Made by a program: the position numbers and the translations under genes. Positions 7,136-28,170 of a DNA stretch of 64,000 nucleotides are shown here, in pieces. Each line of letters begins with the position of its first letter. Positions within the stretch are counted from its first letter, which is position 1. Below the pieces are notes generated by a model. That model did no database searches. It was not told the DNA's origin and saw only the letters and a program-made list of their open reading frames with translations. The DNA is from Flavobacterium indicum GPTSA100-9 = DSM 17447 (GTDB lineage Bacteria; Bacteroidota; Bacteroidia; Flavobacteriales; Flavobacteriaceae): assembly GCF_000455605.1 (NCBI RefSeq), contig NC_017025.1, positions 1,798,001-1,862,000 of the forward strand. The letters are read 5' to 3'.

Positions 7136-7163
7136 TAGACGAAAATCTTTTTTATTCCTGACA
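7136..7163 (-). promoter_or_regulatory. ECF-type promoter, site 1 (peroxidase-related CMD unit)
   Basis: On the minus strand TGTCAGGAAT (7154-7163), 12 bases, then CGTCTA (7136-7141). The same element with identical spacing occurs four more times in this window. Here the -10 is 19 bases before the start codon at 7116. It lies directly after the terminator of the preceding gene. Confidence 0.8.
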
Positions 7164-7175
7164 TACAAAAAGAAA

Positions 7176-7210
7176 AAAACCAACAAAGATTTTGATCGAT
7201 GTTGGCTTTT
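7176..7210 (-). terminator. intrinsic terminator after CMD copy 2
   Basis: Minus-strand stem AAAAGCCAACA ... TGTTGGTTTT with a following run of T. It separates CMD copy 2 from the next transcription unit, whose promoter follows at once. Confidence 0.7.
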
Positions 7211-7231
7211 GAAAAGTCTTTAACAAAGAAC

Positions 7232-7783
7232 CTATTTTTTCCATACTCTTCCAGCGAAAGCAGTATCGATTTCAGGATTAGTGATATGATTGGAATAATT
7301 ACTCAATGTTTTTGCACCAATCCCTGCAATAATACCTAAAACGTGAACTTCTGTATAACCTGCTGCCAAAAATTCTTCGACTTCAGATTGAGAAACATTG
7401 CCACGAGTGGCAGTAAGAGAACGTGTTAATTTTGATAGTGCCGCTAATTTTGCATCAGGAATTTGTTTGCCATCACGGATAGCATTTGTTACTTCGGCAG
7501 GAACTTTAGTCATCATATCGCCCACAAAACTATGTGCAGCCATACAATATTCGCAATTATTCTCATAAGCTACAGATAGGAAAACTACTTCTTGCTCAAC
7601 AGGAGAAAATCCAGAATTTGCTCTAAATGTGTTATAAGAATAAGTATAAGCGTCTAACAAAGCTGGATTGTTACCCATACTTTTATACATATTGGGTACA
7701 AATCCTAATCCTTTTTGGGTTTTATCAAAAAGTTCTTGCGATAGTGGAGAAACTGAGTTGTTCTCTAATTTTAAATGTGCCAT
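7232..7783 (-). CDS. carboxymuconolactone decarboxylase (CMD/AhpD-like) family protein, copy 2
   Basis: A 183-residue paralogue of the protein at 1050-1607. The motif C77-x2-C80-x3-H84 is intact (NNCEYCMAAH). The two differ mainly near residues 10-25 and at the C-terminus, which here ends in VWKK. Downstream is a terminator; upstream, 84 bases away, is AraC copy 2. Unlike copy 1 it is not followed by SDR and SRPBCC genes. Peroxide- or thiol-linked chemistry is likely from the family; the substrate is unknown. Confidence 0.85.
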   Translation of the reverse strand: MAHLKLENNSVSPLSQELFDKTQKGLGFVPNMYKSMGNNPALLDAYTYSYNTFRANSGFSPVEQEVVFLSVAYENNCEYCMAAHSFVGDMMTKVPAEVTNAIRDGKQIPDAKLAALSKLTRSLTATRGNVSQSEVEEFLAAGYTEVHVLGIIAGIGAKTLSNYSNHITNPEIDTAFAGRVWKK

Positions 7784-7800
7784 TTTAATTGTTTTTTTTA

Positions 7801-7820
7801 ATTAGTATTATATTACTAAT
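7801..7820. promoter_or_regulatory. inverted repeat before CMD copy 2
   Basis: ATTAGTA-N6-TACTAAT, a 7-bp inverted repeat starting 18 bases upstream of the start codon at 7783. Its position matches that of the palindrome at 1627-1640 before CMD copy 1, but the sequence differs. A possible regulator-binding site. Confidence 0.3.
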
Positions 7821-7867
7821 GCAAAGTTGGCAAGAATTAGAAAGACAAACTTTTGTAAATAGTTCAA

Positions 7868-8725
7868 CTATTTGGAGATTTGGTTCAAACGGAAATTTGA
7901 TGGTGTTTGATTGTATTTTTCATGAAATAGTGTAGAAAAATTAGCTAAGTCATTGAAACCACAATCAAAAGCAATGTCTGTAATACGTTCATTAGAAATT
8001 AATAAAAGCTCAGCTGCTTTTTCTAGTTTTTTATTTCTAAAATAATTCGCTGGACTGTCGTTGTAACTTTTTTTGAATTCTCTTTTGAAGGAGGAAAGGC
8101 TTAAATTGGCTATTTGTGCTAGTTCTTCAATAGTTATATGTTGGTAAAAATAACTTTCCACAATTTGTTTGAATGTAAAACTTGTTGGCGAAAAAAGTTG
8201 TGATAAAATTTGTTGAATAACCGGAGCATTTTTGGTTTGACACAATAAGAGAATAATTTCTTTTAACTTGATGACCAGTAAATCTTCATTAATCAGTGTT
8301 GGATTGTCAAAATAAAACAACAAACTTTCAATATATTTTTGGATTAAAAAATCATTATTGATTTGAGTTAAATCAAGTTCTAAATTAGGTACTTTTGAAG
8401 GTTTTTGAAAAATCTTTGGTAAATCTGTATCGTATATTTTTTTCAATATTTCGGGATGAAAATGAACGATAACTATCTGATTATTTTTTGAAAGTGTACT
8501 GCTTTTCATTTGGCTAAAATAATTACCACATTTAAGTAATACTGCTTCATTTACAGGTATAGAGATATTTTGCAGTTGTGTTTTGTAATCTATTTGTCCT
8601 TCAAGCATATATAAAAAACAAGCCTCATTAGGCATAGGATTTGGAATTTTGAAAGGAGCCTTTATAGTTACTTTTTCAAAAATTATTTTTCCGAATAGCT
8701 GGTATTGTTTTCTTTCTGAAATCAT
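7868..8725 (-). CDS. AraC-family transcriptional regulator, copy 2
   Basis: A 285-residue AraC-type regulator. The C-terminal DNA-binding part shows ITIEELAQIANLSLSSFKRE and RITDIAFDCGFNDLANFSTL followed by KYNQTPSNFR. The N-terminal half resembles AraC copy 1 (phrases such as EACFLYMLEG and KCGNYF are shared). It reads toward CMD copy 2. Upstream is the YceI gene and a terminator between them, so it likely has its own promoter. The effector is unknown. Confidence 0.9.
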   Translation of the reverse strand: MISERKQYQLFGKIIFEKVTIKAPFKIPNPMPNEACFLYMLEGQIDYKTQLQNISIPVNEAVLLKCGNYFSQMKSSTLSKNNQIVIVHFHPEILKKIYDTDLPKIFQKPSKVPNLELDLTQINNDFLIQKYIESLLFYFDNPTLINEDLLVIKLKEIILLLCQTKNAPVIQQILSQLFSPTSFTFKQIVESYFYQHITIEELAQIANLSLSSFKREFKKSYNDSPANYFRNKKLEKAAELLLISNERITDIAFDCGFNDLANFSTLFHEKYNQTPSNFRLNQISK

Positions 8726-8733
8726 AAAAAATG

Positions 8734-8784
8734 GAAAAAGCCATATATCATTCTCTTTATTAGAAAATGAAGTATAGCTTTTTC
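8734..8784 (-). terminator. terminator-like hairpin after the YceI gene
   Basis: GAAAAAGC at 8734-8741 pairs with GCTTTTTC at 8777-8784, with further pairing inside the loop (CATTCTC against GAAAATG). On the minus strand the stem ends in a T-rich tail. Confidence 0.55.
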
Positions 8785-8798: not shown

Positions 8799-9344
8799 TT
8801 AATAATTTGCTTCTACTGTAACTTCCACTGTTTTAGCAATATTAGTGGAAGGCTTTCCTTTAGTAAATGCTACTTTATAATCTGCAAGTGTAACATTAAA
8901 TTTTGAAGATAAACTAATTTTACCTGACTTAACTGTAAATGTAGCTTTCTCCTTAATATGATTAGTTACACCATTTATCGTTAATTCTCCTTCAACAACA
9001 GCAGTATAAGAACCATCTTTCTCAAAATTAATTTTATCAAGATTAGCAATTTTTCCCGTTAATTTTGCTTTTGGATTGGTTTTAGTATCCAAAAACTTTT
9101 TACTGTTAAAGTGTTCTTGCATTAAAGCTTTTTCGAATTCAAAACTTTGCATCGGTACCGAAAACACAATATCTCCAGTTTTTGTATCTAAAGTACTGAT
9201 TGATTTGTAGTTGTTTGCTTCAATGTTTTCTGCCGGTGTTGAAGAAAAGAATTTAATGTGTGTTTTTGAACTAGTTTGCTTTTGGGCAAAAGCCGTTAAT
9301 GAAACTGTTACTAATGCTACGATTGTTAAAAGAAATTTTTTCAT
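8799..9344 (-). CDS. YceI-family periplasmic protein
   Basis: A 181-residue exported protein: signal peptide MKKFLLTIVALVTVSLTAFA, then a YceI-type lipocalin-like beta barrel (FSVPMQSFEFEKALMQEHFN, AKLTGKI, VEGELTINGVT). YceI proteins bind polyisoprenoid or other amphiphilic molecules in the periplasm; the ligand here is unknown. It lies 31 bases after the OB-fold gene and is likely transcribed with it from ECF-type site 2. A polyisoprenoid link would be consistent with the lipid-carrier-type glycosyltransferases of the same putative regulon, as inference. Confidence 0.85.
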   Translation of the reverse strand: MKKFLLTIVALVTVSLTAFAQKQTSSKTHIKFFSSTPAENIEANNYKSISTLDTKTGDIVFSVPMQSFEFEKALMQEHFNSKKFLDTKTNPKAKLTGKIANLDKINFEKDGSYTAVVEGELTINGVTNHIKEKATFTVKSGKISLSSKFNVTLADYKVAFTKGKPSTNIAKTVEVTVEANY

Positions 9345-9375
9345 GATTTGAATTTTTAATTTATTGATTTATAAT

Positions 9376-9843
9376 TTAGTTTTTAGTAATAATATCTGAT
9401 TTATCAATGATGACATTTTCATACATTTCTAAATCTGCATCATAAGTAGCTCCTGATTGAATTACTCCCTTAATGGTTATTTTGTCACCAATTTTTACTT
9501 TTGAAGCATTAGCGTTTGTTTCCGTTGTAAACGTTGCGCTCACACCTGCTTTATCTGTTGCATTTTTTAATAATATAACTTTGTTATTATTAAAATCTTC
9601 ATCGATTTGTGCAACAGTTCCTGTAATTTCTAATATCTTAGAATTACCATTTTCATCAAGGTATTTTTCATTTGCTTTTTTAGCATTTGATAAATACTCA
9701 TTTACAATTTCACTTGAATTAAAAGTAAAATCTGTGTCAGTCGCTTGTACATCTCTAGCTGGTTTATTGAACATATATAGAACAACTCCAATTGCAATTG
9801 CAACTCCAACGATTAGTGTAATTAAAATTCTCTTTTTAGTCAT
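9376..9843 (-). CDS. membrane-anchored OB-fold (tRNA_anti-like) protein
   Basis: A 155-residue protein with one N-terminal membrane anchor (about residues 5-25) and an extracytoplasmic OB-fold-like region of the tRNA_anti-like type (ILEITGTVAQIDEDFNNNKVILLKN, KIGDKITIKGVIQSG). Bacteroidota often encode such anchored OB-fold proteins. No activity is known. It is the first gene after ECF-type promoter site 2, with YceI downstream. Confidence 0.7.
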   Translation of the reverse strand: MTKKRILITLIVGVAIAIGVVLYMFNKPARDVQATDTDFTFNSSEIVNEYLSNAKKANEKYLDENGNSKILEITGTVAQIDEDFNNNKVILLKNATDKAGVSATFTTETNANASKVKIGDKITIKGVIQSGATYDADLEMYENVIIDKSDIITKN

Positions 9844-9878: not shown

Positions 9879-9906
9879 TAGACATCATTTTTTATCATTC
9901 CTGACA
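9879..9906 (-). promoter_or_regulatory. ECF-type promoter, site 2 (OB-fold/YceI unit)
   Basis: Minus strand TGTCAGGAAT (9897-9906), 12 bases, TGTCTA (9879-9884), 35 bases before the start at 9843. One base differs from the CGTCTA seen at three other sites. Confidence 0.78.
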
Positions 9907-9979: not shown

Positions 9980-10255
9980 TTATAACTTATTTATTTCTTC
10001 AATGATTTTAACCTTTTTTTCATTAGATAATTTAACTTTCTTACTAGAACTATCTTTATTAAACCAATTAGTTATTATTTTATCAATAAACTTAGATTGA
10101 TGTTCATAAGCATTACAAGTTTTACACATTGATTTGTGCATTTGTAATTGCATTTTTTCTTTTATAGATAAAGGCACTATTGACTGTTTGTCAATTAATT
10201 CTGTTGTCCTTTTACAAGAGTTTACTAATATATTCATTAATTTTTGTACTATCAT
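9980..10255 (-). CDS. small soluble zinc-binding anti-sigma factor candidate
   Basis: A 91-residue protein with no membrane segment. It carries H40-x3-C44-x2-C47 (MHKSMCKTC), the core of the zinc-binding anti-sigma (ZAS) motif, plus a single upstream Cys14. The spacing C14/H40/C44/C47 equals that recalled for the zinc ligands of the redox-sensing anti-sigma RsrA (C11/H37/C41/C44). It starts 18 bases after the ECF sigma gene. A cytosolic ZAS protein would fit sensing of thiol stress, oxidants or a thiophilic metalloid inside the cell. Function is inferred from motif and position, not shown. Confidence 0.72.
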   Translation of the reverse strand: MIVQKLMNILVNSCKRTTELIDKQSIVPLSIKEKMQLQMHKSMCKTCNAYEHQSKFIDKIITNWFNKDSSSKKVKLSNEKKVKIIEEINKL

Positions 10256-10273: not shown

Positions 10274-10858
10274 TTAAATCCATTTTAATTCCAAACATTT
10301 TTTCATAAGTAATTTTGACCTATGAACAATCTGCCAATAATTAGTCACTGATATATCCAAATCCTGACAAATTTCCTCAGCTTTTTTATTTGTTAAATAT
10401 TTGGAAGTGAATGCATTTTTCCATTTACTAGGTAAATCATCCATACACTCTTTAAGTACATGATTAAATTCAGGATTATCTAGCAACTCTTCTTCATCAT
10501 TATTCCAAATTGCGTTGATTTCATTTGACACCCAATTTTCATTTGTATTGAATAATCCGTCTGTTACTTCATTTCCAATATTTTCTGATAAAGAACGATT
10601 AAATTTAGAAGTTTTTGCATCTAATCTATAATAATCAATTATTTTATTCTTTAATATTGAAAAAAGCCAAGTCTTAGGTTGACTATCACCTTTAAAACTC
10701 TCAATTTTATGAAAAGCTGCTAAAAAAGTTTCCTGAACTAAATCTTCTGCTATTTCTTTTGAAGATGTTTTATATAAGGCCCAAGAAAAAAGCTCATCAC
10801 TAAATTTAGTAACCCAAATTTCAAATTCTTTTTGTCTATTTTGTTTTATGATCTCCAT
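10274..10858 (-). CDS. ECF-type RNA polymerase sigma factor
   Basis: A 194-residue sigma-70 family factor with region 2 (EIAEDLVQETFLAAFHKIES then PKTWLFSILKNKIIDYYR) and region 4 (DLPSKWKNAFTSKYLTNKKA, then EEICQDLDISVTNYWQIVHR), lacking regions 1 and 3, as in ECF factors. The linker between them is rather long. It is followed by the anti-sigma candidate and a terminator. Five copies of one ECF-like promoter lie within 20 kb, making this the obvious candidate to read them. No copy lies before its own start; a TAnnTTTG element (10883-10890) does, but without a well-spaced -33, suggesting housekeeping expression. Confidence 0.92.
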   Translation of the reverse strand: MEIIKQNRQKEFEIWVTKFSDELFSWALYKTSSKEIAEDLVQETFLAAFHKIESFKGDSQPKTWLFSILKNKIIDYYRLDAKTSKFNRSLSENIGNEVTDGLFNTNENWVSNEINAIWNNDEEELLDNPEFNHVLKECMDDLPSKWKNAFTSKYLTNKKAEEICQDLDISVTNYWQIVHRSKLLMKKCLELKWI

Positions 10859-10964
10859 AAATTTTTAAAAGTCTTATTTTTTCAAAAATACATTTTTTAA
10901 TTAAAAAAAGTAACATAATCAATCAAAAAAATATAAATTTAAAGGATAAAATCTTTAAAATACA

Positions 10965-11121: not shown

Positions 11122-12714
11122 ATGCAAAAAGTATTCAATTTATTTGATTTAAAACAAAAAGTAAATTACAAAACTGAAATATTATCTGGATTAACAGTCG
11201 CCTTAGCATTAGTTCCAGAAGCTATTGCTTTTGCAATGATAGCAGGATTTTCTCCACTTACAGGTTTGTATGCAGCTTTTGTTATGGGATTAGTAACTTC
11301 AATATTAGGAGGGAGGCCAGGTATGATTTCTGGAGCAACAGGAGCAGTAGCAGTAATTTTCGTGGGACTTATTTTAGAATTAAAAAGTACTTTTCCAGAA
11401 ATAAGTTCGGAAACAATTTTACATTATGTTTTTGCAACTGTTATAATTGGAGGATTGCTTCAAATTTTAGCTGGTGTCTTACGATTAGGCAAATTTATCC
11501 GATTAGTACCACATCCTGTTATGTTTGGTTTTGTTAACGGATTAGCGATTATAATTTTTATGGCGCAGTTTCCTAATTTTTATCAAAAAGGAACTTCAAA
11601 TTTACTAGAAGGTTCTTCTATGTTTATTATGTTAGTTTTAACATTACTTACAATGTTAATTATTTGGGGTTTACCAAAATTAACTAAAGTTGTGCCTTCA
11701 TCATTAGTAGCTATTATTACTGTTTCGGCAATTGTAATTGGATTTAATATTGATACTATGACGGTTGCTGATACACTAAATCAAGGTGAAACTATAAAAG
11801 GTGGTTTTCCACCATTTTCATTTCCATCAATACCTTTAACATTCGAAACATTCAAAATTATATTTCCATATGGAGCAATTGTTGCAGGTGTTGGTTTAAT
11901 TGAAAGCTTATTAACTTTAAATCTTATTGATGAAATTACTGAGACTCGTGGTAATGGTAACAGAGAGTGTATTGCTCAAGGAACTGCCAATATTGCTTCA
12001 GGATTATTATCTGGAATGGGTGGTTGCGCAATGATTGGCCAAAGTTTAATAAATACTTCAGCAGGTGCAAGAGCAAGATTATCAGGAATTGTTGCTTCAG
12101 TAATGTTGTTAGTTTTTATAATGTTTGGATCAAACTTAATTGAAAAATTACCAATGGCTGCTTTAGTTGGCTTAATGTTTATGGTTGCTATTGGAACTTT
12201 TGAGTGGGCAAGCTTTAAAACTTTCAGAAAAATGCCTTGGTCTGATGTAATTGTTATGGTCTTGGTAACGTTAATTACTGCAATTACTCACAATTTAGCT
12301 ATCGCAGTAATAATTGGTGTAGTTTTATCTGCTTTGGCTTATTCATGGGAAAATGCTAAAAGAATACGTGCAAGGAAATATGTGGACGAAAACGGTATTA
12401 AACATTATGAAATTTATGGACCTTTGTTTTTTGGTTCTGTACAAGGCTTTTCAGAAAAATTTGATATTATAAATGATCCAGAAGAAGTAATTATTGATTT
12501 TAAAGAAAGTCGTGTAGCTGACATGTCAGCTATAGAAGCATTAAACTCGATAACGCATCGTTATTTCAAACAAGGTAAAAAAGTACATTTACGCCATTTA
12601 AGTCAAGATTGTATAAATTTACTTAACAAAGCCGAAGCTATTATTGATGTAAATATTATAGAAGATCCAACATATAAACTAGCGATAGATGTAAATCAAA
12701 AAAAGCATAATTAA
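11122..12714 (+). CDS. SulP-family inorganic anion transporter with STAS domain
   Basis: A 530-residue inner-membrane protein with about 10-14 helices: the SulP signature is in [27 protein letters not shown], and NGLAIIIF and [11 protein letters not shown] are further conserved helices. A cytosolic STAS domain ends it ([20 protein letters not shown]). Likely substrates are sulfate, bicarbonate or another oxyanion. I choose ATG 11122 because the longer frame from a GTG at 11077 starts inside a hairpin and adds non-family residues. It is the only plus-strand gene in the first 39 kb and is divergent from the sigma gene. Confidence 0.92.
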
Positions 12715-12731
12715 TTTATGCTTTTTTTGAT
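12695..12731. terminator. bidirectional terminator across two convergent gene ends
   Basis: A perfect 16-bp stem (12695-12710 with 12716-12731) with a 5-base loop and seven T on either strand after GC. It contains the stop codons of both the SulP gene and the convergent mannosyltransferase-like gene, so it is itself coding at both ends. Confidence 0.85.
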
Positions 12732-14039
12732 AGTTCTAAAATCTAACATTATATAAATTAAAACTAACAAGTATTCCAAACCAATCAACCAATAGTTTTC
12801 TTTAAATACTGTATTTTGATATGCACTATAACTCAAAAATATGGCAAAGCTCCAAATATGTGCAAAATTGTATTTTGTAAATAATGCAACCAAAACCAAG
12901 TTGATAATATACCAAGGATGAACTGTTGTAGCGGTTAGAAAATAGGTAGTTAATATGATTAAAAAGCTGCTAAATAACTCTTTGATGGTTTTGTTTTTCT
13001 TGAAAAAGGTTTGAAACAAGACAAATAAAATGATAACTATCGGAATAATTTTTCCTGTGATATGAATGATATTATAACCTTTAATCCAAAAACCAATTTC
13101 ACGAATTAAATAGTAAATACTTGCATTAAATTCAAAATTTGTAAACCACAAACCAATGGTTTCGGTATATTTATTTACTAAATCTGTCGAAATAAAAGGC
13201 AAGAACAATAATGTATTTACTCCAATTACAATGCTGTAAAAACTGATGCTTTTTTTCCAACTCAGCTTCTGAAAAAATAGAGGTAACAACAGCAATGGAA
13301 GTAGTTTTACAGAAATAGAAATAGACAAAACAAGTGCGGCAAATATCCACTTTTTTTGTTGTAACAAATACATACTCCAAACAAAAAACAAAAGCATCAC
13401 ACCCTCAAAATGGAGGTTTCCTGTTAGTTCAATTATAACTAAAGGATTTAAAATATAGAAAAAAATACGTGATTTTTCAAAACCTAGATTTTTTAATAAT
13501 TTACTACCAAAATAATAAATTCCTATATCAGCAGCAATAATTATTAAACGAAAAATTATTACAGAACCCAAAATTGAATTGGAACTGAAAAACGCTGTAA
13601 TTGTAAATAAAAACTGGTTTACTGGTGGATAATTTGAATAGTGCGAGGCACTTAAACTTCCCATTCCTTGATATAATGTATCTGCTTGAGGTAAATTAAA
13701 ATTTGAATTTTGTATTAAATTATTAGGTAAATAAATGTACGGATTTAATCCTTCTAAAATTAATCTTCCATCCCAAATGAATCGAAAATAGTCTTGCGAT
13801 AAGTTGGGTAAACTAAATAAAAAAAGTATTCTAAATGTTATTGCAATTCCTATCAAAAAAGAAAAATTATTCTTTTCAAGCACAGTAATTTTGTAAAAAA
13901 ACATGAAAAGAAAAGTGAACAAAGTAAGTAATATATAAAAGTCACTTCGTTCAAAAAAATAAGCAAATAATGCATAAAAAATGATACTAAATAAGCTAAG
14001 TACTAACGTATATTTAGAATGTACATTCATTTTAAGCAT
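12711..14039 (-). CDS. polytopic membrane glycosyltransferase (GT87/DUF2029-like)
   Basis: A 442-residue protein with about 11 membrane helices. The motif [21 protein letters not shown] in the first large loop resembles the acidic-residue loop of GT-C enzymes that use polyprenyl-phosphate sugars (GT87, DUF2029). It overlaps the CesA-like gene by eight bases and is the last gene of the unit starting at ECF-type site 3. Start is either 14039 or the ATG nine bases later. With a dolichyl-phosphate-mannose-synthase-like enzyme two genes upstream, a lipid-linked sugar pathway is plausible. Confidence 0.7.
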
Positions 14040-15510
14040 CCTTTATTGATCTGAAAAAAACATAAGAATAGCCTATGATAAGCATCAAGTGCAAAGGAAA
14101 TAACCCAAAATCATTAATTTGAAAACCAGAATATAATCCAAAAAGAAAATACAAAATTAAGATTCCTTCAAAAAATATGTTTTTAGAAATTTTATCTGAA
14201 ATATATACATTCTGTCTCCATTTATCATTTAGTGTTTCCATATTAAATTTAGGTGTTCTAACGAACTCACTTTTTTTCCCAATAAAAGCTTCTAAAACAG
14301 CAATGGTATTGTGAAATGTAAATCCCAAGGCAATAGTATAGAAAGTAAAAAACATTCCTATATAGTTTATAAACTTTTTAAATCCACCACCATGTATGTT
14401 TTTATAAGTAAACCAATAGCTTACAAAAAATAACAATGTGGTTACAAAAAACAATAATAATACATCAAAAATATAGTACAAATTAGGGTTCTTATTTTTT
14501 ATAAATAGCATTGGCACACTTAATATTGACATAATAAAAATGCCCAAAAACATGGAACTATTTAAAAGATGCAATATGCCATGAATTTTCGTTTGTAATG
14601 AAATAGATTTTGAAAATAAAACTCTTGCACCCATTTTAATAAAATTTTCGGCACCGCCTTTATTCCATCTAAATTGTTGAGATCGAGCCGCACTTATAAT
14701 TACAGGTAGCTCGGCTGGAGTTTCTACATTTTCTAAATACTTGAATTTCCAATTTTTTAATTGTGCTCTGTAACTTAAATCTAAATCTTCGGTTAATGTA
14801 TCACTTTCCCAGTTTCCTGCATCAAGAATACAATCTTTTCTCCAAACTCCAGCAGTTCCATTAAAGTTGATAAAATGGGATTGTGAATTACGACCCACTT
14901 GCTCCAATGTAAAGTGAGCATCAAGAGCAAAGGCTTGTATTTTTGTTAGAATAGAATAATTTCTATTCATATGCCCCCAACGTGTTTGTACAACTCCAAT
15001 TCCATTATCTTTGAAATAAGGAATCGTTTGCAATAACCAATCCTTTTGCGGTACAAAATCAGCATCAAAAATGGCAATAAATTCTCCTTTGGCAACAGCT
15101 AAACCTTCTTTTAATGCTCCAGCTTTAAATCCAACTCTGTTACTTCTTGTAATATGTTTAATGTCTAAACCAGATTGATATAAATCAGAAATTATTTTTT
15201 TGGTTTCGATAACACTTTCATCGGTGCTATCATCTAAAACTTGAATTTCTAATTTGTCTTTTGGATATTCAAGTTCAGCAATAGTTAAAAGCAAACGTTT
15301 AACCACATATTTTTCGTTATAAATAGGTAATTGAACTGTAACTAATGGAATTTCATTTTCAAAATTAAAATCAAATTTTTCGTTGGTAGGAATTTGTTTT
15401 TTACTTTTTAAATAATTAATAAGTAAATTAAATTGAGCTAACCCATAGAAAAAGATTATTAAGATAGAGAGTGTGTATAAAAAAAGTATAATGTATGATA
15501 GTATTTCCAT
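14032..15510 (-). CDS. membrane glycosyltransferase family 2, cellulose-synthase-like
   Basis: A 492-residue processive-type GT2. One N-terminal helix, then the catalytic domain with [37 protein letters not shown] and the QQFRWNKG (Q-x-x-R-W) motif, then about four C-terminal helices. All catalytic motifs are present. It is similar in plan to cellulose-synthase/CESA-like proteins common in Bacteroidota, whose products are mostly unknown. It sits four bases after the GT2 gene upstream and overlaps the membrane GT downstream. Confidence 0.88.
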
Positions 15511-15514
15511 TAAA

Positions 15515-16608: not shown

Positions 16609-16619
16609 AAATATTCATC

Positions 16620-17342: not shown

Positions 17343-17391
17343 AATTGCAAAATTTTGGGTTATAAATTATTGAGCTTGTATAATTTTAAAA

Positions 17392-18981: not shown

Positions 18982-18983
18982 AA

Positions 18984-20299: not shown

Positions 20300-20327
20300 T
20301 AGACGAAATAAAATGAAATTCCTGACA
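20300..20327 (-). promoter_or_regulatory. ECF-type promoter, site 3 (redox/glycosyltransferase unit)
   Basis: Minus strand TGTCAGGAAT (20318-20327), 12 bases, CGTCTA (20300-20305), 20 bases before the start at 20279. It fills the small gap between the TIGR04283-type gene and the oxidoreductase gene. Confidence 0.82.
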
Positions 20328-21022: not shown

Positions 21023-21770
21023 TTAAACTCCAGTTATATTCTTTGTATTTTACTTTTGCACTTTTATTGATTTTTATGGAACTATACTTATTTAAAAAAT
21101 CTATTATAGTTCCATTTGTTTTAAAATCTCCTGAAAACCAATCAAATATTTTTGATATTTCTACGGTATTAGCAGAAATTGTGTTTTTAGTTTTATCATT
21201 TACAAATGCTTTTGCTCCAGCCTCTAATTGAATTTCTAATTTAGCTTCTGTATAAGCTTGATTGGATAAGTTTGGACAAGAAAAAGAAGCACAGTTTATG
21301 GCAAAATGAATTCTTGGTTCATTCATTTTTCTTAATATTTCGTGCTCTATTTCTTCTAAGCTATACTTTTTTGTTCCTATTGTAAAATTTTTTTTACCCC
21401 AAGGATCTTTAATATCTTTTATACTTTTTACAGGATAATTATCTAAAATAAGTTTTACTGTAAACGCATTATATGTGTTTATCCAATAAGCTAAAATCGC
21501 ATTACGAGACCATGATTTTTGAGGTGCATTTGTGGTTAATTCATCTAAATAAACTTGTAATGCTTTTGCATCTTTCTTAAATCCTTTGTAATCTACATTC
21601 CCCTTGTCTGTAACATATTTTTGCAATAATGTGTTCCACTTTTGATGATCTAATGCTTTCGTTGAATTTTGATTTTCTACCGCATAAGCCATTTCAGGAA
21701 TACTATTTTCATTTGACTTTGCACACGACAAAAGAGGGAATAAGGCTATTATAAAAAATATTTTTCTCAT
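21015..21770 (-). CDS. DUF547 lipoprotein, copy A
   Basis: A 251-residue lipoprotein: signal peptide with lipobox LLSC, so Cys16 is the likely lipidated residue. DUF547 follows (VDYKGFKKDAKAL, ILAYWINTYNAFTVKLIL, NYPVKSIKDI, RIHFAINCASFSCPNLSN, KIFDWFSGDF). The cysteine pair in NCASFSCP is typical of one DUF547 branch and is absent from copy B. First gene of the two-gene unit behind ECF-type site 4, followed by the TIGR04283-type glycosyltransferase. Confidence 0.88.
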   Translation of the reverse strand: MRKIFFIIALFPLLSCAKSNENSIPEMAYAVENQNSTKALDHQKWNTLLQKYVTDKGNVDYKGFKKDAKALQVYLDELTTNAPQKSWSRNAILAYWINTYNAFTVKLILDNYPVKSIKDIKDPWGKKNFTIGTKKYSLEEIEHEILRKMNEPRIHFAINCASFSCPNLSNQAYTEAKLEIQLEAGAKAFVNDKTKNTISANTVEISKIFDWFSGDFKTNGTIIDFLNKYSSIKINKSAKVKYKEYNWSLND

Positions 21771-21794: not shown

Positions 21795-21822
21795 TTGTCG
21801 AAACATTTATGAATTCCTGACA
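21795..21822 (-). promoter_or_regulatory. ECF-type promoter, site 4 (DUF547/TIGR04283 unit)
   Basis: Minus strand TGTCAGGAAT (21813-21822), 12 bases, CGACAA (21795-21800). The upstream box is identical to the other four sites, the spacing too, but the downstream box is the most divergent, which may make it weaker. Confidence 0.7.
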
Positions 21823-21824
21823 AA

Positions 21825-22700
21825 CTATTTTTTAAAAGGATAAAGTTCTTGTTCCAAAAAATCTTGAGGAAATTCATCTTCGTCTGAAAAACCTAATTCT
21901 ATATCTCTTCCATCTCTTGGTACATGATTGGTTTTGAATAAATAATCCCAAATACTCAATGAAATTCCGAAGTTAGCCCCATATTTAGAAGGTAAAGCTT
22001 TACTATGATGCCAAATATGCATTTTTGGGTTATTGAAAATATATTTTAAAAAACTGTAATCCCAACCAATATTAGCATGATTCAAATGACCAATGGCTAT
22101 AGCAATAAAATGCACAACAAATACATCTTCAAGAGCAAAACCACCAATTAATATTAATGGAATATATTGTATTGATTTGTACACCACCGCTTCTAACCAA
22201 TTGTATCGAAATTGAGTGGCAAAACCCATTTGCTTAGGCGAATGATGCGTTTTGTGAATTTGCCACAAAAACGGAACGCGATGCAATAATCGGTGTGTAT
22301 TCCATTGCACAAAATCACTTAAAATAAAGAATATTATTAATCCAAAAGGCTTTGGTAATTCTGATAAAGAAAAAAATTGAATTGAATTTATCTGAAAACC
22401 AAAAAGGTTTAAAAAGTCATTAAATAATGCTTCGGTTACGTTGGATAAAGCAATGAGTAAAAGCAAATTCAATAGGAAGAAATTGAAAAACATATAAAAC
22501 AAATCCAACCAAAAATCTTTTCTAAATATGGGTTGATTTTTTCGCCAAGAAAAGGCAATTTCTAATAGCCAAACTACTACTGATATAAATAGTAAACCAT
22601 AGAAATAGTTGTCCCATTTCCAATAAAGAATTTCATTTATCAAGTAGTTAAAATATCCACTATAAGAGTTTATTATAAGTTCTATATACTGATCTTTCAT
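21825..22700 (-). CDS. sterol desaturase / fatty acid hydroxylase superfamily protein
   Basis: A 291-residue membrane di-iron enzyme candidate. The histidine clusters are present: H136RLLH, H149KTHH, and a late cluster HLNHANIG ... HIWHHSK. About four or five helices surround them. Members use O2 to hydroxylate or desaturate lipids, or cleave ether lipids. The substrate cannot be read. It begins five bases after the PiT gene and is the last gene of the unit from site 5. In an arsenosugar setting, lipid modification (arsenolipid) is conceivable but unproven. Confidence 0.88.
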   Translation of the reverse strand: MKDQYIELIINSYSGYFNYLINEILYWKWDNYFYGLLFISVVVWLLEIAFSWRKNQPIFRKDFWLDLFYMFFNFFLLNLLLLIALSNVTEALFNDFLNLFGFQINSIQFFSLSELPKPFGLIIFFILSDFVQWNTHRLLHRVPFLWQIHKTHHSPKQMGFATQFRYNWLEAVVYKSIQYIPLILIGGFALEDVFVVHFIAIAIGHLNHANIGWDYSFLKYIFNNPKMHIWHHSKALPSKYGANFGISLSIWDYLFKTNHVPRDGRDIELGFSDEDEFPQDFLEQELYPFKK

Positions 22701-22705: not shown

Positions 22706-23815
22706 TTATTTAAGAACGAAAAAAATAATTGCACTTATAATTGCAGCTATTGGTAATGTTAGTATCCAAGACAAAACTATTCTTAATATCATTTTGAAAT
22801 CTGCTGATTTATTTACTAATCCAATTCCAAAAATAGAACCTACAGAAACATGAGTAGTAGAAACAGGTAAATTATTAAAACTTGCCGTAGTAACTAATAT
22901 ACTTGTAACTAAATTTGCAGTAAATCCTTGTCCTGTATTCATTGTTGTAATTTTATTACTCATGGTATTTGCAACCTTTCTTGCATTTAGAATTCCTCCG
23001 ACAGCCATTGCAATGGCTACAACATAAAGGAAATAACTTGAATTAACAGAAGTAATTAATAATAATATTCCAGCGATTTTTGGTGTATCATTTAATCCTC
23101 TAGCAAATCCAACTGCACCTGCACTAATAAAATGAAAAAAATCAACAATTTTTTGACTTGAAATACCAAAAATACTTTTAGAATATATTTCTGAAGTTGA
23201 ATCACAAGATGATACAATTAGTTCATTTTCAATTTTAATTTCAGATACAAAATCATTATGAGTTACTTTGGCGTTATAATCCTCAATCAAGCAAATGCAA
23301 GATTGTTTTGTGATTCCAAGTTTTTTCCTAATTGAAGAAAATGAATAATAAAAAAACACAGCAAAAATTGAAGCTAAAAGAGGGCTTGCTAATAATGGAA
23401 CTACAAAGGCATCCGCAAGTTTCTGAAAATTAAATCCTAGTCCAACAGACAATATTCCAACTCCAAACAAACTTCCAACCAATGCATGTGTAGTAGATAC
23501 AGGCATTCCGATTTTAGTTGCAAAAAAAATTGTCAATGCAGCACCAATAACTACTGAAATTGCAAATATGGGATTTAATAATAGTTCATCAGGGACTAAT
23601 CCTTTACCTGAAAAATTTTTCAAAAGACTTTTAACTAAAAAAATAGAACAAATAGAACCTGAAATTGTAGTTAAAACAGCCCAAACAAGTGCACTTTTAT
23701 ATGATATAGTTTTACTGCTATAAAGAGTTGCTACACCTTTAAAAATGTCATTAGCACCATTATTAAATGATAAAAAAACTACTGCTAAAATTAAAATTAA
23801 ATTTGTCATATTCAT
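22706..23815 (-). CDS. PiT-family phosphate (arsenate) permease
   Basis: A 369-residue PiT transporter with about ten helices. The two repeated signature motifs are present: FNNGANDIFKG near the N-terminus and GFARGLNDTPKIAG in the second half, with PVSTTHA and PVSTTHV copies. PiT carriers take up phosphate with H+ or Na+ and usually do not discriminate well against arsenate. Placement directly after arsM suggests import of arsenate, or phosphate supply for the nucleoside phosphorylase step; both are inferences. Start could also be the ATG six bases later. Confidence 0.9.
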   Translation of the reverse strand: MNMTNLILILAVVFLSFNNGANDIFKGVATLYSSKTISYKSALVWAVLTTISGSICSIFLVKSLLKNFSGKGLVPDELLLNPIFAISVVIGAALTIFFATKIGMPVSTTHALVGSLFGVGILSVGLGFNFQKLADAFVVPLLASPLLASIFAVFFYYSFSSIRKKLGITKQSCICLIEDYNAKVTHNDFVSEIKIENELIVSSCDSTSEIYSKSIFGISSQKIVDFFHFISAGAVGFARGLNDTPKIAGILLLITSVNSSYFLYVVAIAMAVGGILNARKVANTMSNKITTMNTGQGFTANLVTSILVTTASFNNLPVSTTHVSVGSIFGIGLVNKSADFKMILRIVLSWILTLPIAAIISAIIFFVLK

Positions 23816-23818: not shown

Positions 23819-24787
23819 TTAACAACATCCTCCTCCGTTATAATGATAGGTACTTTCACTAATGAAAATATCACTTCTATTTAATGATGCTATTGCAGTT
23901 GCTGTTTTATCGCAAATTGCTAATGGTTGATTTTTCATCAAGACATGACCTTTATCATCATCAAAATAATCTTCCTTACCAAAATAAATTGCAGCTTTAC
24001 CAGTAAAAACGCATGGACCATCTGCTGGCATAGGGTCTTTTATCGCACAAACCTCTATACTTTCAATATAAATTAATTCATCTGTTGGGTAATTTTCTGT
24101 ATCTAAAATTCTATAAGGTCTTCTACCTCTTATCTCAATAGTACCAAACCCAACATCCGTTAAAGCTTTAATATAATCAGCAATAGGAATACTACCACTT
24201 AAACATAATGCTCGTAAATGATCATCGTTTCTTAAAGTTTCGTTCATTTCTTGTTCGCATGTAGGATCACTCATAACTAAACGTCCGTGAGGCTTTAAAA
24301 CTCGATACATTTCCTGCAATGCTTTTTTTAAATCTTCGGCTTTAAAAATATTAAAAAGACAGTTTTGTGCAGCAACATCAATACTTTCATTTTCAATAGG
24401 TAAATTCAATGCATCGCCTTTTCTTAACTCAACAAATTCACTTTTAAACCATTCGTTCTCTTGTTCAGCAATAAGGAAGTTCTTTCTAGAAGCTTCTAAC
24501 ATCTCATCTACAACATCTACACCAATAACTCCTGCTTTTTGTCTAGAAAAATATGAGAATTGTAACAATTCCATTCCACCGCCAACACCTACATATAAAA
24601 TCTTTGGATTATTAATTAAATCTTGTGCCGAAATAGTACTACCACAACCATAATTCATTTCTTGCATAATTTTTGGAATTTCTAAACCAGGAAATTTCCA
24701 GATAGGTGTTGTTGTACAACATAAACCAACATCGGGTGTTAATGCGGCATTTTTATATAAATCGTTTGTTGCGTTTAAATAACTCAT
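23819..24787 (-). CDS. arsM: arsenite S-adenosylmethionine methyltransferase ArsM, arsenosugar-associated type
   Basis: A 322-residue class I methyltransferase. SAM site ILYVGVGGGMEL at about residues 63-74. Cysteines C143 (QNCLFN) and C195 (ALCLSGS) sit in contexts matching the two C-terminal arsenic-binding Cys of known ArsM proteins, and C23-C24 and C48 lie near the N-terminus. It ends in Gly-Gly-Gly-Cys-Cys, a likely extra metalloid site. ArsM adds methyl groups to As(III). With ArsS it supplies the methylated arsenic for arsenosugars. Twelve bases separate it from the phosphorylase gene. Confidence 0.88.
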   Translation of the reverse strand: MSYLNATNDLYKNAALTPDVGLCCTTTPIWKFPGLEIPKIMQEMNYGCGSTISAQDLINNPKILYVGVGGGMELLQFSYFSRQKAGVIGVDVVDEMLEASRKNFLIAEQENEWFKSEFVELRKGDALNLPIENESIDVAAQNCLFNIFKAEDLKKALQEMYRVLKPHGRLVMSDPTCEQEMNETLRNDDHLRALCLSGSIPIADYIKALTDVGFGTIEIRGRRPYRILDTENYPTDELIYIESIEVCAIKDPMPADGPCVFTGKAAIYFGKEDYFDDDKGHVLMKNQPLAICDKTATAIASLNRSDIFISESTYHYNGGGCC

Positions 24788-24799: not shown

Positions 24800-25615
24800 T
24801 TAAATATTTTTAATTAATGCTTTAAATAGTGTAATCATTTTAGGTTCTGCTTCTCCAGCAATGGCTATAATTTCAGGAATGTTTACTGGTTTTAAATCAT
24901 CAGGATTACATTCATCAGTTAAAACTGAAACGGCCAAAACAGGCAGTTGTAAATGATTTGCAACGATTACTTCAGGAACTGTACTCATACCAACAGCATC
25001 TGCGCCAATAATTTTTAAATAGCGATATTCTGCTCTTGTTTCCAATTGTGGACCTACAACAGCAGCATAAACCCCTTTGCGAAGCACAATAGCATTCTGT
25101 TTTGCTATTGCTGTAATTTTGGTATTCATATCTTCATCATAGGGCGCACACATATCGGTAAATCGTTCCCCAAAATCAGAAACATTAGCAAATGCCAATG
25201 GTGAACCTCCTTGCAAATTAATATGATCATCAAGCAACATCAAATCGCCTTTTTTGTAATTCAAATTAATAGCTCCTGCTGCATTTGAAATTAGCAGTTT
25301 TTTTATACCTAAAGCACTCAATATTCGTATAGGAAAAGTTATTTCTTGCAAACTATACCCTTCATACAAGTGAAATCGTCCTTGCATTAAAATAACTTTT
25401 TTACCTTCTAGAGTTCCAAAAAGTAATTTCCCTGAGTGAAACTCTACAGTTGACAAAGGAAAATTTGGAATATCAGCATAATTTATTTCGCATTCAATGG
25501 TCAAATGATTTACTAATTGTCCAAGTCCTGTTCCTAATACAATACCAATTTCAGGATTAACAAAACCTTTCTCTTTAAGAAAACTTGTAGTTATTTCTAT
25601 TGTTTTTATATTCAT
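24800..25615 (-). CDS. purine nucleoside phosphorylase (PNP/MTAP family)
   Basis: A 271-residue trimeric-type PNP: GIVLGTGLGQL (phosphate loop), STVEFHSGKL, MQGRFHLYEGY, ISNAAGAIN, AVVGPQLETRAEYR, VGMSTVPEV. It splits purine nucleosides into base and pentose-1-phosphate. Its place between arsM and the TIGR04282 glycosyltransferase, within 12 and 2 bases, suggests a dedicated role: removing adenine from the arsenical adenosine made by ArsS so that the sugar can be handed on. That role is inference; ordinary purine salvage is the alternative. Confidence 0.9.
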   Translation of the reverse strand: MNIKTIEITTSFLKEKGFVNPEIGIVLGTGLGQLVNHLTIECEINYADIPNFPLSTVEFHSGKLLFGTLEGKKVILMQGRFHLYEGYSLQEITFPIRILSALGIKKLLISNAAGAINLNYKKGDLMLLDDHINLQGGSPLAFANVSDFGERFTDMCAPYDEDMNTKITAIAKQNAIVLRKGVYAAVVGPQLETRAEYRYLKIIGADAVGMSTVPEVIVANHLQLPVLAVSVLTDECNPDDLKPVNIPEIIAIAGEAEPKMITLFKALIKNI

Positions 25616-25617: not shown

Positions 25618-26217
25618 CTATAGATATTTTTGAAATTCTGGAATATTTTTAATGTCGTCGATGGTGTCGATATCGTTTTGCATTCTTAAAAATGCTGTAT
25701 TGATATTCGATAAATTGGTTAATGTATCTGATAAAACCGTGTTAGTTCCCCAATTTTTATTTTCGAATATCCCATTTGGAATTGTTTTCAAGCCTAATAG
25801 ATAATAGCCTCCATCTTCAGCAGGGCCGATAACAACTTCATTTTCATCTAATAGTTTAAAAGCATCTTCAATATCTTTTGATTCAAGAGTTGGCAAATCA
25901 GAACCTACAATAACAATTTTATCGAAACCATTTTTAAATCCTTTTTCAAAAGCATTTTTCATTCTCAATCCTAAATCGGTTCCTTGTTGAATATCTTTTT
26001 CAAAAGTAGCAGTGTCCCAAATATCATTTAAAACAATATCATTGGAATACAATACACGCTTAAAAGCATTTACTTGAGCGATACATTGTTTAGTATGAGC
26101 TAACAAATGAACATAAACTTTAAGAGCATTTTTTTTTCCAATTGTTACTGCTAATCGGGTTTTTACTTTTCCTAATTCAGGATTTCTAGTAAAAACTAAA
26201 ACTAATTTCTTTTCCAT
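25618..26217 (-). CDS. TIGR04282-type arsenosugar-associated glycosyltransferase
   Basis: A 199-residue nucleotidyltransferase/GT-A-fold protein: TRNPELGKVKTRLA at residues 8-21, VIVGSDLPTL, GPAEDGGYYLLG, and NWGTNTVL. This short type accompanies ArsS and the TIGR04283-type enzyme in arsenosugar loci. The frame is open to 26241, but that would overlap the arsS end. The ATG at 26217, two bases after the arsS stop, gives the usual family start MEKKLVLVF. The donor and acceptor are unknown. Confidence 0.85.
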   Translation of the reverse strand: MEKKLVLVFTRNPELGKVKTRLAVTIGKKNALKVYVHLLAHTKQCIAQVNAFKRVLYSNDIVLNDIWDTATFEKDIQQGTDLGLRMKNAFEKGFKNGFDKIVIVGSDLPTLESKDIEDAFKLLDENEVVIGPAEDGGYYLLGLKTIPNGIFENKNWGTNTVLSDTLTNLSNINTAFLRMQNDIDTIDDIKNIPEFQKYL

Positions 26218-26219
26218 AA

Positions 26220-27275
26220 TTAAGCTACCGTACCTTGACAACTACTTCCTGCTCCAGCAGTACATCCATAACAATGCTGAGAAATTACAATGTCTCGATC
26301 ATTTAAAGATTCTTCATTATATTCTGAAATATGTTTTTCTTTTGAAGCTACTTTTAGACCTAACATTTGATTAAAATCGCAGTCATACAGATAACCATCC
26401 CAACTAACAGAAATCGTGTTGGTACACATTACATTTGCAACTGCTTTTGGATTAAATGCTTCTACTAAAGCATACATATAATCTTCGTAATTATCTGAAG
26501 CAATTAAATAATCTAAAAATCTACTAATTGGAATATTAGTAATGGCAAATAAATTATTGAAATCAATATCAAAATCTTCCTTTAATGCTTTTTTGAAATC
26601 TTTTTCTAAAGCCATTTGATCAGTAGGAAGAAATGCTCCGGAAGGATTATATACTAAATCTAATTTAAGTGGACTTCCTTCTTTTCCATAACCAACATCA
26701 TTAAGCATTTGTAATGCTTTTATTGATTTATCAAAAACTCCATCACCTCTTTGCTTATCCGTTTTTTCCCTCTTGTAAAAGGGTAAGGAAGAAATGACAT
26801 GAATATTATGTTTAGCGAAAAAATCAGGTAAGTCATGGTATTTTTTATTCGCTAAAATAATTGTTAGGTTAGAACGTACTATAAAATCTTTTACGCCTAA
26901 TTTAGAAGCTTCTTCAACAAACCATCGAAAATTTGGATTCATTTCAGGAGCACCACCAGTTAAATCTAAAGTATGTACAGAGGTTGTTTTAAGAACATTT
27001 AAAATGTGCTCCATGGTGTCAACTGTCATGATTTCTTTTCTATCAGGGCCAGCATCTACATGACAATGTGCACAAACTTGATTGCACATGTACCCAACAT
27101 TAATTTGTAAAATTTCAATCTTCTTCGGGCGTAAAGGAAATTGATTTATTCCTTTAAGTTTATTGGCAAAAGTGGGTAAAGATCCGTCTTTAAAAAAACC
27201 ATTAGATAAAATTTCTAATTGTTTTTCCGTTTTTGAAAGCTCACTTTTTTTTGCTTGTAATGATTTTGCTAACAT
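26220..27275 (-). CDS. arsS: arsenosugar biosynthesis radical SAM protein ArsS
   Basis: A 351-residue radical SAM enzyme. Cluster motif C64-x3-C68-x2-C71 (MCNQVCAHC) with the GGAPEMN SAM site. The C-terminal Cys-rich domain ends in CYGCTAGAGSSCQG, the feature that marks ArsS. The protein joins a 5'-deoxyadenosyl group to dimethylarsenic, the first arsenosugar intermediate, according to work on this family. The context (arsM, PNP, two glycosyltransferases, CMD) confirms the call. It starts 14 bases after the peroxidase-like gene. Confidence 0.93.
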   Translation of the reverse strand: MLAKSLQAKKSELSKTEKQLEILSNGFFKDGSLPTFANKLKGINQFPLRPKKIEILQINVGYMCNQVCAHCHVDAGPDRKEIMTVDTMEHILNVLKTTSVHTLDLTGGAPEMNPNFRWFVEEASKLGVKDFIVRSNLTIILANKKYHDLPDFFAKHNIHVISSLPFYKREKTDKQRGDGVFDKSIKALQMLNDVGYGKEGSPLKLDLVYNPSGAFLPTDQMALEKDFKKALKEDFDIDFNNLFAITNIPISRFLDYLIASDNYEDYMYALVEAFNPKAVANVMCTNTISVSWDGYLYDCDFNQMLGLKVASKEKHISEYNEESLNDRDIVISQHCYGCTAGAGSSCQGTVA

Positions 27276-27289
27276 TCGCTCTAATTAAA

Positions 27290-27625
27290 TTACATTGATA
27301 ATTTGTCATATTTGTTCATCATTTGCACACCATGAACTAAAGATGCTCCACCTCTAATAGCAGCAGCTACATGCAAAGCTTCCATCATTTCTTCTTTAGT
27401 TATACCTCTTTTTAAGCCATCGCCCGTATAAGCATCTATACAATAAGGACATTGAACAGTATGAGCAACTGCCAATGCGATTAATGATTTTTCTCTTGCT
27501 GTTAAATTCCCTTCTTCAAAAACTTTTCCATAGTATTCGAAGAATTTTGAACCTAATTCCTCATTCCATTCTGATATTTTTCCAAATTTTTTCAAATCTG
27601 ATGGATCGTAGTATGTTTTTTCCAT
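27290..27625 (-). CDS. arsenosugar-associated peroxidase-like CMD protein
   Basis: A 111-residue AhpD-fold protein with C59-x2-C62 (QCPYCIDAY); the following His of the other CMD proteins is replaced by Tyr. Size and position directly before arsS match the peroxidase-like family recognised as part of arsenosugar loci. It may handle a redox step on arsenic or protect the radical SAM enzyme. That is not known. It begins 11 bases after the rhodanese gene. Confidence 0.88.
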   Translation of the reverse strand: MEKTYYDPSDLKKFGKISEWNEELGSKFFEYYGKVFEEGNLTAREKSLIALAVAHTVQCPYCIDAYTGDGLKRGITKEEMMEALHVAAAIRGGASLVHGVQMMNKYDKLSM

Positions 27626-27636
27626 GATGCTATATA

Positions 27637-28122
27637 TTAATAAGTTTGAATTCCTTTTTTTAGATATTTACTCCATTCTTTACTATACGTATGTATATAT
27701 TCTGTTTCTTGCTCTAAATGATTAAATACTTTATAACCATTATTTTTCCATTCAAAAATGCCTCCATAAAGATTAAAAACATTAGAATAACCTAACTTCA
27801 ATAATTTTTCTCCAATTTTTTCACTTCTTACTCCAATAGAACAATAAACTATAATTGTTGTATTCTTATCTTTTATTTTTTCTAAAACTAATTTTTGATT
27901 GAACTTGTTATAGCCTACATGTATAGCTCCCTTAATATGGCTCGTATTATACTCAATCAATTCTCTTGCATCTAAAAAGACTACAGGTGACTTAATCGAG
28001 GCTTGTTTAACATTTATATACGAAACACGCTCTGAATTGTATTTTTTTAATACTTCAGGAATAGAATTCTGGCCATAAATTATGGTAGAAAAAAGTAAAA
28101 GAATAAGGAAGAAATGTCGCAT
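27637..28122 (-). CDS. exported rhodanese-like protein
   Basis: A 161-residue protein with signal peptide MRHFFLILLLFSTIIYG and one rhodanese domain: FLDARELIEYNTSHIKGAIH and active-site loop VYCSIGVRS with Cys94. It can carry persulfide sulfur, or bind arsenic like Cdc25/ACR2-type arsenate reductases, but nothing here separates these. The frame is open to 28155, which would include the -10 of promoter site 5. ATG 28122 restores a clean signal peptide. First gene of the eight-gene arsenosugar operon. Confidence 0.85.
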   Translation of the reverse strand: MRHFFLILLLFSTIIYGQNSIPEVLKKYNSERVSYINVKQASIKSPVVFLDARELIEYNTSHIKGAIHVGYNKFNQKLVLEKIKDKNTTIIVYCSIGVRSEKIGEKLLKLGYSNVFNLYGGIFEWKNNGYKVFNHLEQETEYIHTYSKEWSKYLKKGIQTY

Positions 28123-28142
28123 AATTACATTTTTATCTAATA

Positions 28143-28170
28143 TAGACGAAAACATTTTGAATTCCTGACA
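28143..28170 (-). promoter_or_regulatory. ECF-type promoter, site 5 (arsenosugar operon)
   Basis: Minus strand TGTCAGGAAT (28161-28170), 12 bases, CGTCTA (28143-28148), 20 bases before the rhodanese start at 28122. Identical in both boxes to sites 1 and 3. Confidence 0.82.

Follow-up and report, generated by a model that had tools for sequence, protein, structure and literature searches.

The closest described systems are the soluble zinc anti-sigma systems SigR-RsrA and SigE-ChrR, in which an extracytoplasmic function (ECF) sigma factor gene is followed by a small anti-sigma factor gene with an HxxxCxxC motif, and whose targets are of the redox or metal type. Zinc anti-sigma factors are a well-known class. 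The same layout, i.e. an ECF sigma factor, a small HxxxCxxC protein and redox- and metal-type targets, is seen in a 64,000-nucleotide (nt) stretch of the Flavobacterium indicum GPTSA100-9 genome (C1:1798001-1862000 of 2,993,089 bases), hereafter the window, in which all feature coordinates are given unless marked as genome positions. The presumed targets, among them an arsenosugar biosynthesis cluster, are preceded by a two-box element, TGTCAGGAAT-N12-CGTCTA. With a probability of about 0.87, this element is the promoter of the ECF sigma factor encoded in the same cluster, which would be held by an anti-sigma factor, released by a thiol signal, subject to feedback through an element copy inside its own gene and located on a genomic island. 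The locus differs from SigR-RsrA and SigE-ChrR in that the sigma factor belongs to another family, the anti-sigma candidate is compact (91 amino acids, aa) and has no sensor domain, and the probable promoter of its gene lies within the codons of the sigma gene.

Promoters inside sigma genes or neighbouring genes are already known (PMC10027907, PMC13171946). The Mycobacterium tuberculosis sigE gene has a promoter, P3, inside the sigma coding region, and its anti-sigma gene is transcribed separately; however, P3 is read by SigH and serves sigE, and the rseA promoter is intergenic (PMC10027907). The promoter of Caulobacter cabp-sigV is positioned in the 3' end of the upstream coding sequence, with a start 87 nt before the next start codon, but the embedding gene does not encode a sigma factor and the promoter drives sigV (PMC13171946). 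ECF-type promoters with a conserved CGT -10 box have been described in Flavobacterium psychrophilum SM6, although their targets are type IX secretion and other genes, and the string TGTC is absent from the accessible part of that text (PMC9723704). In the open-licence literature searched, no description was found of the element, of an arsenosugar sigma regulon or of a promoter conserved within region 4.2 codons.

The window contains five intergenic copies of the element.

7136-7163, minus strand: promoter element TGTCAGGAAT-N12-CGTCTA
9879-9906, minus strand: promoter element TGTCAGGAAT-N12-TGTCTA
20300-20327, minus strand: promoter element TGTCAGGAAT-N12-CGTCTA
21795-21822, minus strand: promoter element TGTCAGGAAT-N12-CGACAA
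28143-28170, minus strand: promoter element TGTCAGGAAT-N12-CGTCTA, before the rhodanese/ArsS/ArsM operon

These five sites, with CGTCTA in three, TGTCTA in one and CGACAA in one, had been reported in an earlier sequence-only reading of the window, and all lie exactly where it placed them. They also stand, as it claimed, just before the first genes of units: the end of the -10 box is 19, 35, 20, 24 and 20 nt from the first ATG (sites 7163, 9906, 20327, 21822 and 28170, respectively; 19-35 nt overall), after correction of the first starts to 28122 behind site 28170 and to 7116 behind site 7163. That the recurrence exceeds chance is borne out by the 12 occurrences of TGTCAGGAAT with at most one mismatch in the window, the five exact ones included, where 4.5 are expected. 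The genome scan that had been proposed, run here with TGTCAGGAAT-N11-13-YGTCTA, gave four exact matches, all in the window, and none for the reversed control; the CGACAA site falls outside this pattern. Searching for TGTCAGG-N15-CGWCTA with at most one mismatch gave 11 matches genome-wide (reversed control: one). Ten of them are located within genome positions 1782506-1826170 (44 kb), all on the minus strand, and the remaining one is at 652640. For nine of the ten, an ATG follows at 17-35 nt; five of these are the window sites and four are farther left (genome 1782506, 1785739, 1786712 and 1790665, 17-32 nt from the ATG). The tenth (10369-10342 of the window) falls within the sigma gene, and 86 nt separate it from the next open reading frame (ORF), the presumed anti-sigma gene. 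The five sites were thus correctly described, whereas their extent of 21 kb was too small, since the set is larger and spans 44 kb. Abundance of the element at unrelated positions would speak against an ECF promoter; instead it is nearly confined to this region, which favours one. At three mismatches, genome matches are mostly due to chance (20 versus 17 for the reversed control). Two matches were set aside, one at genome position 652640 inside a 458-aa ORF on the same strand, which reads as a RarA-like ATPase from its translation rather than from a family search, and one at 310241 (two mismatches) inside a 358-aa ORF on the opposite strand.

The sigma gene and the features around it are as follows.

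10274-10858, minus strand: ECF sigma factor, 194 aa, with regions 2 and 4 (PF04542, PF08281)
9980-10255, minus strand: presumed zinc anti-sigma factor, 91 aa, C14...H40xxxC44xxC47
10342-10369, minus strand: element TGTCAGGATT-N12-TGACTA within the sigma gene, coding for CQDLDISVTN of region 4.2
10883-10890, minus strand: TATTTTTG box just before the sigma start, matching TAnnTTTG

The protein is an ECF (group IV) sigma factor according to its matches to PF04542 (59.9 bits, cut-off 24; 2.1e-16) and PF08281 (27.2 bits, cut-off 25.7; 3.1e-6). TIGR02943 is its best-scoring family, but with 144.2 bits against a cut-off of 162.2 the protein is a relative of this family and not a member. Homologous loci were obtained by scanning public genomes with an alignment of four sigma factors, and the best 80 of at least 382 confirmed loci were used; their taxa include Flavobacterium, Mariniflexile, Lutibacter, Maribacter, Cyclobacterium, Cytophaga, Bacteroidales and an Ignavibacteria bin. 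In each of the 77 loci that extend far enough (three of the 80 are cut off), sigma is followed by an ORF with C...HxxxCxxC. C14, H40, C44 and C47 are invariant in 40 aligned anti-sigma ORFs, namely every second of the 77 relatives (39) plus that of the window. The ORF therefore has the sequence hallmarks of a zinc anti-sigma factor, i.e. HxxxCxxC and an upstream Cys/His ligand beside a sigma gene, and the invariant residues suggest a zinc-thiolate switch. The sigma gene of the window is not itself preceded by a copy of the element, and in none of the 77 loci tested was one found within 260 nt upstream of sigma. The TATTTTTG box at this place could be like that of the primary sigma factor, although in AT-rich DNA such a match is weak evidence; TAnnTTTG is given as the box of the flavobacterial primary sigma factor (PMC9723704).

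The copy inside the sigma gene is conserved beyond what its amino acids require. The region 4.2 peptide ICQELxITxSNYW is written TGT CAG GAA ... NNG TCT AAT in most homologues. In 81 sigma genes, the match to TGTCAGGAAT-N12-CGTCTA averages 13.85 of 16 positions, compared with 11.67 (standard deviation 0.14, maximum 12.07) in 2000 synonymous-codon shuffles. Ranked by excess third-base conservation in these genes, codons 171, 165, 164 and 172, the four that carry TGTCAG and GTCT, take places 1, 2, 4 and 5; place 3 is held by residue 77, outside the element. At codon 171, although 12 different residues occur there, 64 of 81 genes have G as the third base (27% expected); codon 165 ends in G in 80 (CAG or AAG), codon 164 in T in all 81, and codon 172 in T in 57. 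When only 27 sequences less than 60% identical were retained, the same four codons ranked 1, 2, 3 and 5. Because the homologues were found via region 2 peptide patterns, this conservation is not a product of their selection. By these codon statistics, the internal copy is kept at the nucleotide level in sigma genes of Bacteroidota and relatives. Since it matches the intergenic promoters in sequence and spacing and is followed by the C...HxxxCxxC ORF, an internal anti-sigma promoter is the simplest reading; it would depend on the sigma factor and provide negative feedback.

Co-occurrence of element and sigma factor was assessed in a sample of 150 genomes of the genus, with the sigma factor called at E <=1e-45 and exact matches to TGTCAGGWW-N13-CGWCTA counted as elements. 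Three 150-genome draws were treated as one set because the listed handles agree (32 are listed in two of them). The pattern occurs 24 times in 11 genomes (reversed control: three times in two genomes). Sigma was detected in 12 of the 150 genomes; all 11 element genomes are among these 12, and none of the other 138 carries the element. In three of the 11, the sole match is the copy inside the sigma gene. After exclusion of sigma-internal matches, the element is present in 8 of 12 sigma genomes versus 0 of 138 (Fisher p 9e-11). The association extends to the arsenosugar genes: among the 12 genomes of the genus that match ArsS, an element precedes the ArsS operon in five of six sigma-positive genomes, scoring 13-16 of 16 positions, and in none of six sigma-negative ones, which score at most 11 (one of the latter, G461, has a broken ArsS match below the cut-off). 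The assumption that arsenosugar genes always need this sigma factor was rejected, as 6 of the 12 ArsS genomes lack sigma and 6 of the 12 sigma genomes lack ArsS; nonetheless, the two associate in the genus sample (Fisher p 5e-5). In one genome (G349), 931 kb separate the genes for the CMD protein and ArsS from sigma, and the element is still present, about 126 nt ahead of the CMD start. In another (G368), the sigma factor shares only about 50% identity, whereas the nine genes matched in the two arsenosugar units reach 84-98%; the element is retained before both units, and one of these copies differs from that of the window at a single spacer base. A near-identical element precedes the orthologous arsenosugar operon in this genome, and also in G444.

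Similar results were obtained with 87 stretches, comprising the 80 sigma loci and seven stretches from three genomes. TGTCAGGAWT-N11/12-CGTCTA with at most two mismatches gave 94 matches outside sigma genes, in 54 of the 87 stretches, whereas twelve permuted motifs gave 0-2 matches each and five in all (the first four bases had to be exact for motif and permuted controls alike). An ATG-initiated ORF of at least 60 aa begins within 150 nt of 81 of the 94 matches, at a median distance of 35 nt. Because L109 is contained in L057 and L058, the 94 matches include 4 duplicates and the 81 first genes include 2. The families of the window recur among these first genes: tRNA_anti-like 17, DUF547 11, FMN reductase 5, pyridine nucleotide oxidoreductase 5, CMD 4, DinB 4, thioredoxin 4 and DFP 2, of which FMN reductase, like some other first-gene families of the sigma loci, was not seen in the window. 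Five loci, L068, L081, L097, L119 and L124, have ArsS, ArsM and the CMD partner within 10 kb of sigma; in the first three an element precedes the ArsS operon, but none was seen there in L119 and L124. The element thus has the properties of an ECF-dependent promoter, with two boxes at a fixed spacing of 11 or 12 depending on the lineage, a position just before genes and co-inheritance with a sigma factor. The proposal of an ECF promoter in the sequence-only reading is supported by this spacing, the distance to start codons, near absence elsewhere, co-occurrence with sigma and recurrence before the same families.

According to the mechanism that we propose from these data, the sigma factor (10274-10858) would be held by the small anti-sigma factor encoded just downstream (9980-10255), which would bind both it and zinc. 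A thiol-reactive signal such as arsenite, mercury or an oxidant, suggested by the gene content, would release it. Free sigma would then recognize the element and start transcription at about nine intergenic promoters of the island, with arsenosugar synthesis, CMD proteins, rhodanese, thioredoxin, OsmC, MerT-like transport, YceI, DUF547, glycosyltransferases and redox proteins as outputs. The tenth copy, in its own region 4.2 codons, would drive the anti-sigma gene and close a negative feedback loop. The sigma gene itself has no upstream copy but a box that could be like that of the primary sigma factor. Arsenosugar synthesis in bacteria would thereby gain a testable regulator and a precise promoter. 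The internal copy would be a case of overlapping codes, in which a promoter-like element is under selection inside the codons of its presumed reader in many lineages of a phylum, and which makes the evolution of sigma specificity and feedback directly testable.

Several observations weigh against this interpretation. Four of the 12 sigma-positive genomes (one of them 79% complete) have no exact match outside the sigma gene, and G422 has the sigma factor yet no element before its ArsS operon (11 of 16 positions). No match outside the sigma gene was found in 33 of the 87 stretches, many of which are short contigs. Whereas 19 of 20 matches in Flavobacterium loci have a spacing of 12, in other taxa 39 of 74 have 11, and the internal copy keeps a spacing of 12 even where other sites vary. 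In the window, the internal copy has three mismatches to the consensus. In many Bacteroidales its -10 part is weaker or missing, and 17 of the 81 genes lack the G at codon 171. The internal copy is also not kept in three proteobacterial homologues (8-11 of 16). Matches of the anti-sigma candidates to zf-HC2 are weak: 15 of 40 reach E 0.1, the best has 2e-4, and that of the window is not among them. The only solved chains resembling the anti-sigma by sequence, three at E 0.2-0.9, include no convincing relative.

If the element were the binding site of another regulator, the island would offer candidates, as AraC-family genes are present in the cluster (7868-8725) and at L021 14072-14761. However, 54 of 87 stretches contain the element outside the sigma gene, but just 4 of 80 sigma loci have a relative of the cluster's AraC gene, and the sigma-internal copy is conserved where this AraC gene is absent. 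The element also lies at a fixed 17-35 nt from starts, and its TGTC and CGTC boxes resemble known ECF promoters. Such a regulator is thus very improbable, and a different sigma-70-type protein with an accidental linkage to the present sigma factor is slightly more so. The genome has ten places with sigma-70 region 2 that could supply it, but the element tracks this sigma factor through 150 genomes of one genus, and most of the 138 sigma-less ones are expected to carry further ECF sigma factors.

The location of 10 of the 11 genome copies in one island, all on one strand, could also point to a dispersed repeat or transposon remnant that was copied within the island and has no regulatory meaning. 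Yet the five sites have the two boxes alone in common and differ in their 12-nt spacers and flanks, positions are fixed relative to start codons and the element precedes orthologous genes elsewhere, once 931 kb from sigma, which makes a repeat extremely improbable. The least improbable objection, though still an unlikely one, concerns the sigma-internal copy, which might have arisen by chance from conserved residues and codon bias instead of being a promoter. It does code for the well-conserved ICQELxITxSNYW, whose codons alone give 11.67 of 16 positions, but codons 171 and 165 remain conspicuous against synonymous shuffles and when only the 27 divergent sequences are used.

The -35 box includes codon 165 (CAG or AAG), so that a single base change may alter both the sigma factor (Q165K) and the promoter. 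In the 12 loci with AAG (lysine), the other sites read TGTA in four cases and TGTC in three, compared with TGTA 1, TGTT 2 and TGTC 50 in the 67 glutamine loci (Fisher p 4e-4 for C versus A, with kinship ignored). The seven sites of the lysine loci come from L081, L097, L115, L135 and L139, and no ORF begins within 120 nt of two of the four TGTA sites among them. That region 4.2 codons double as an anti-sigma promoter is well supported; the Q165K coupling rests on the seven sites in five loci. Taken together, it is likely that across Bacteroidota these codons serve as a promoter which is read by the encoded sigma factor and drives its anti-sigma gene, and in which one base change may affect protein and promoter at once.

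More distant sigma factors were also inspected. Paralogous genes of about 35% identity (L028-L053) have NCG-TC at codons 164-173 in 23 of 26 cases, and an HxxxCxxC ORF lies downstream in 21 of 26 paralogous loci. A guessed target of the paralogues, TGTAAK-N16-CGTCWA, was not enriched in six genomes (19 matches, six of them the sigma genes' own copies by position, versus 11 for the reversed pattern). Judging from the paralogue codons, the internal promoter may be older than this sigma branch. The TIGR02943 family and proteobacterial sigma/anti-sigma pairs (L176-L178) are likewise close systems, with a related sigma factor of about 29-34% identity and a small HxxxCxxC ORF downstream, but differ in that the internal element is not kept in the three proteobacterial genes. 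One of these relatives (L178 686-1405), on a Moraxella plasmid, is preceded by a 'putative DNA-binding domain' gene, a neighbour that presumably hints at a link of that sigma branch to metal-buffering operons.

The genes that follow the elements, with operon extents derived from strand and spacing, are listed below.

27637-28122, minus strand: rhodanese-like protein, first gene of the arsenosugar operon (PF00581)
27290-27625, minus strand: arsenosugar-associated peroxidase-like CMD protein (TIGR04169)
26220-27275, minus strand: ArsS, radical SAM protein (TIGR04167)
25618-26241, minus strand: arsenosugar glycosyltransferase (TIGR04282)
24800-25615, minus strand: purine nucleoside phosphorylase
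23819-24787, minus strand: ArsM, arsenosugar type (NF038099)
22706-23815, minus strand: PHO4-family phosphate transporter
21825-22700, minus strand: fatty acid hydroxylase family protein
20330-21770, minus strand: DUF547 protein and TIGR04283 glycosyltransferase
12711-20279, minus strand: seven-gene unit of pyridine nucleotide oxidoreductase, Fe-S protein (ferredoxin domain), DUF547 protein, 134-aa protein, two GT2 proteins and a GT87-like protein (just below the Pfam cut-off)
8799-9843, minus strand: tRNA_anti-like protein and YceI
3632-7116, minus strand: five-gene unit of CMD protein, DinB-like protein (under the cut-off), TANGO2/NRDE protein and two proteins of 348 and 224 aa without Pfam match
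genome, left of window, after site 1782533: OsmC and thioredoxin
genome, left of window, after site 1785766: 1038-aa outer-membrane beta-barrel protein
genome, left of window, after site 1786739: MerT-HMA protein and 71-aa ORF
genome, left of window, after site 1790692: patatin-like protein, M43, DUF547, DFP and 247-aa protein

The arsenosugar biosynthesis cluster is identified by ArsM (NF038099, 568 bits, cut-off 400) and ArsS (TIGR04167, 451 bits, cut-off 300). The label 'ATP-grasp', which the sequence-only reading gave to the ORF at 4308-5354, was not confirmed, as no Pfam family matches it at E 0.01. The regulon would comprise about 24 genes in the window, about 10 outside it and the anti-sigma gene, some 35 genes.

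The cluster probably belongs to a genomic island of about 70.1 kb (genome 1757701-1827797), which holds sigma, anti-sigma and all ten elements, and of which the window carries the right 30 kb only (1-29797).

28253-29506, minus strand: tyrosine integrase, right end of the island (PF00589, PF13102)
29783-29868, minus strand: tRNA-Ser(TGA), integration site

The last 15 nt of this tRNA gene (29783-29797; genome 1827783-1827797) are repeated at genome 1757701-1757715, beside a second tRNA-Ser; the tRNA-Ser(TGA) genes are in tandem. Such an arrangement, with an integrase next to a tRNA gene and a direct repeat of the gene's 3' end at the opposite end, is the hallmark of a tRNA-integrated island, and the island may be mobile. 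If so, a whole sigma regulon, i.e. the sigma factor, its inhibitor, about ten promoters and by our estimate about 35 genes, would reside on one probable mobile island, which could allow a stress response to be passed on as a whole. A query with joined flanks, meant to find an uninterrupted site in a relative, revealed no intact empty site in 39 other genomes: alignments either stopped shortly after the tRNA-Ser or were absent, as the flank is not conserved. In plasmid records, 66 relatives of the sigma factor were found, all below 60% identity, and three of them were retrieved. The island, the sigma-internal copy and the additional sites had been overlooked in the sequence-only reading, to which the sites beyond the left edge of the window were invisible.

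Further CMD/AhpD-like proteins are encoded on the island at 1050-1607 and 7232-7783 of the window and at L021 17385-17918, two of them very alike by eye; none of these three genes has a promoter element directly before it. Among ten ORFs scanned in the left part of the island are an ArdC-like protein and a pair in which, by Pfam domains, an OLD-family nuclease adjoins a UvrD-like helicase (L055 1690-5792), an arrangement that we take to resemble the Gabija defence pair.

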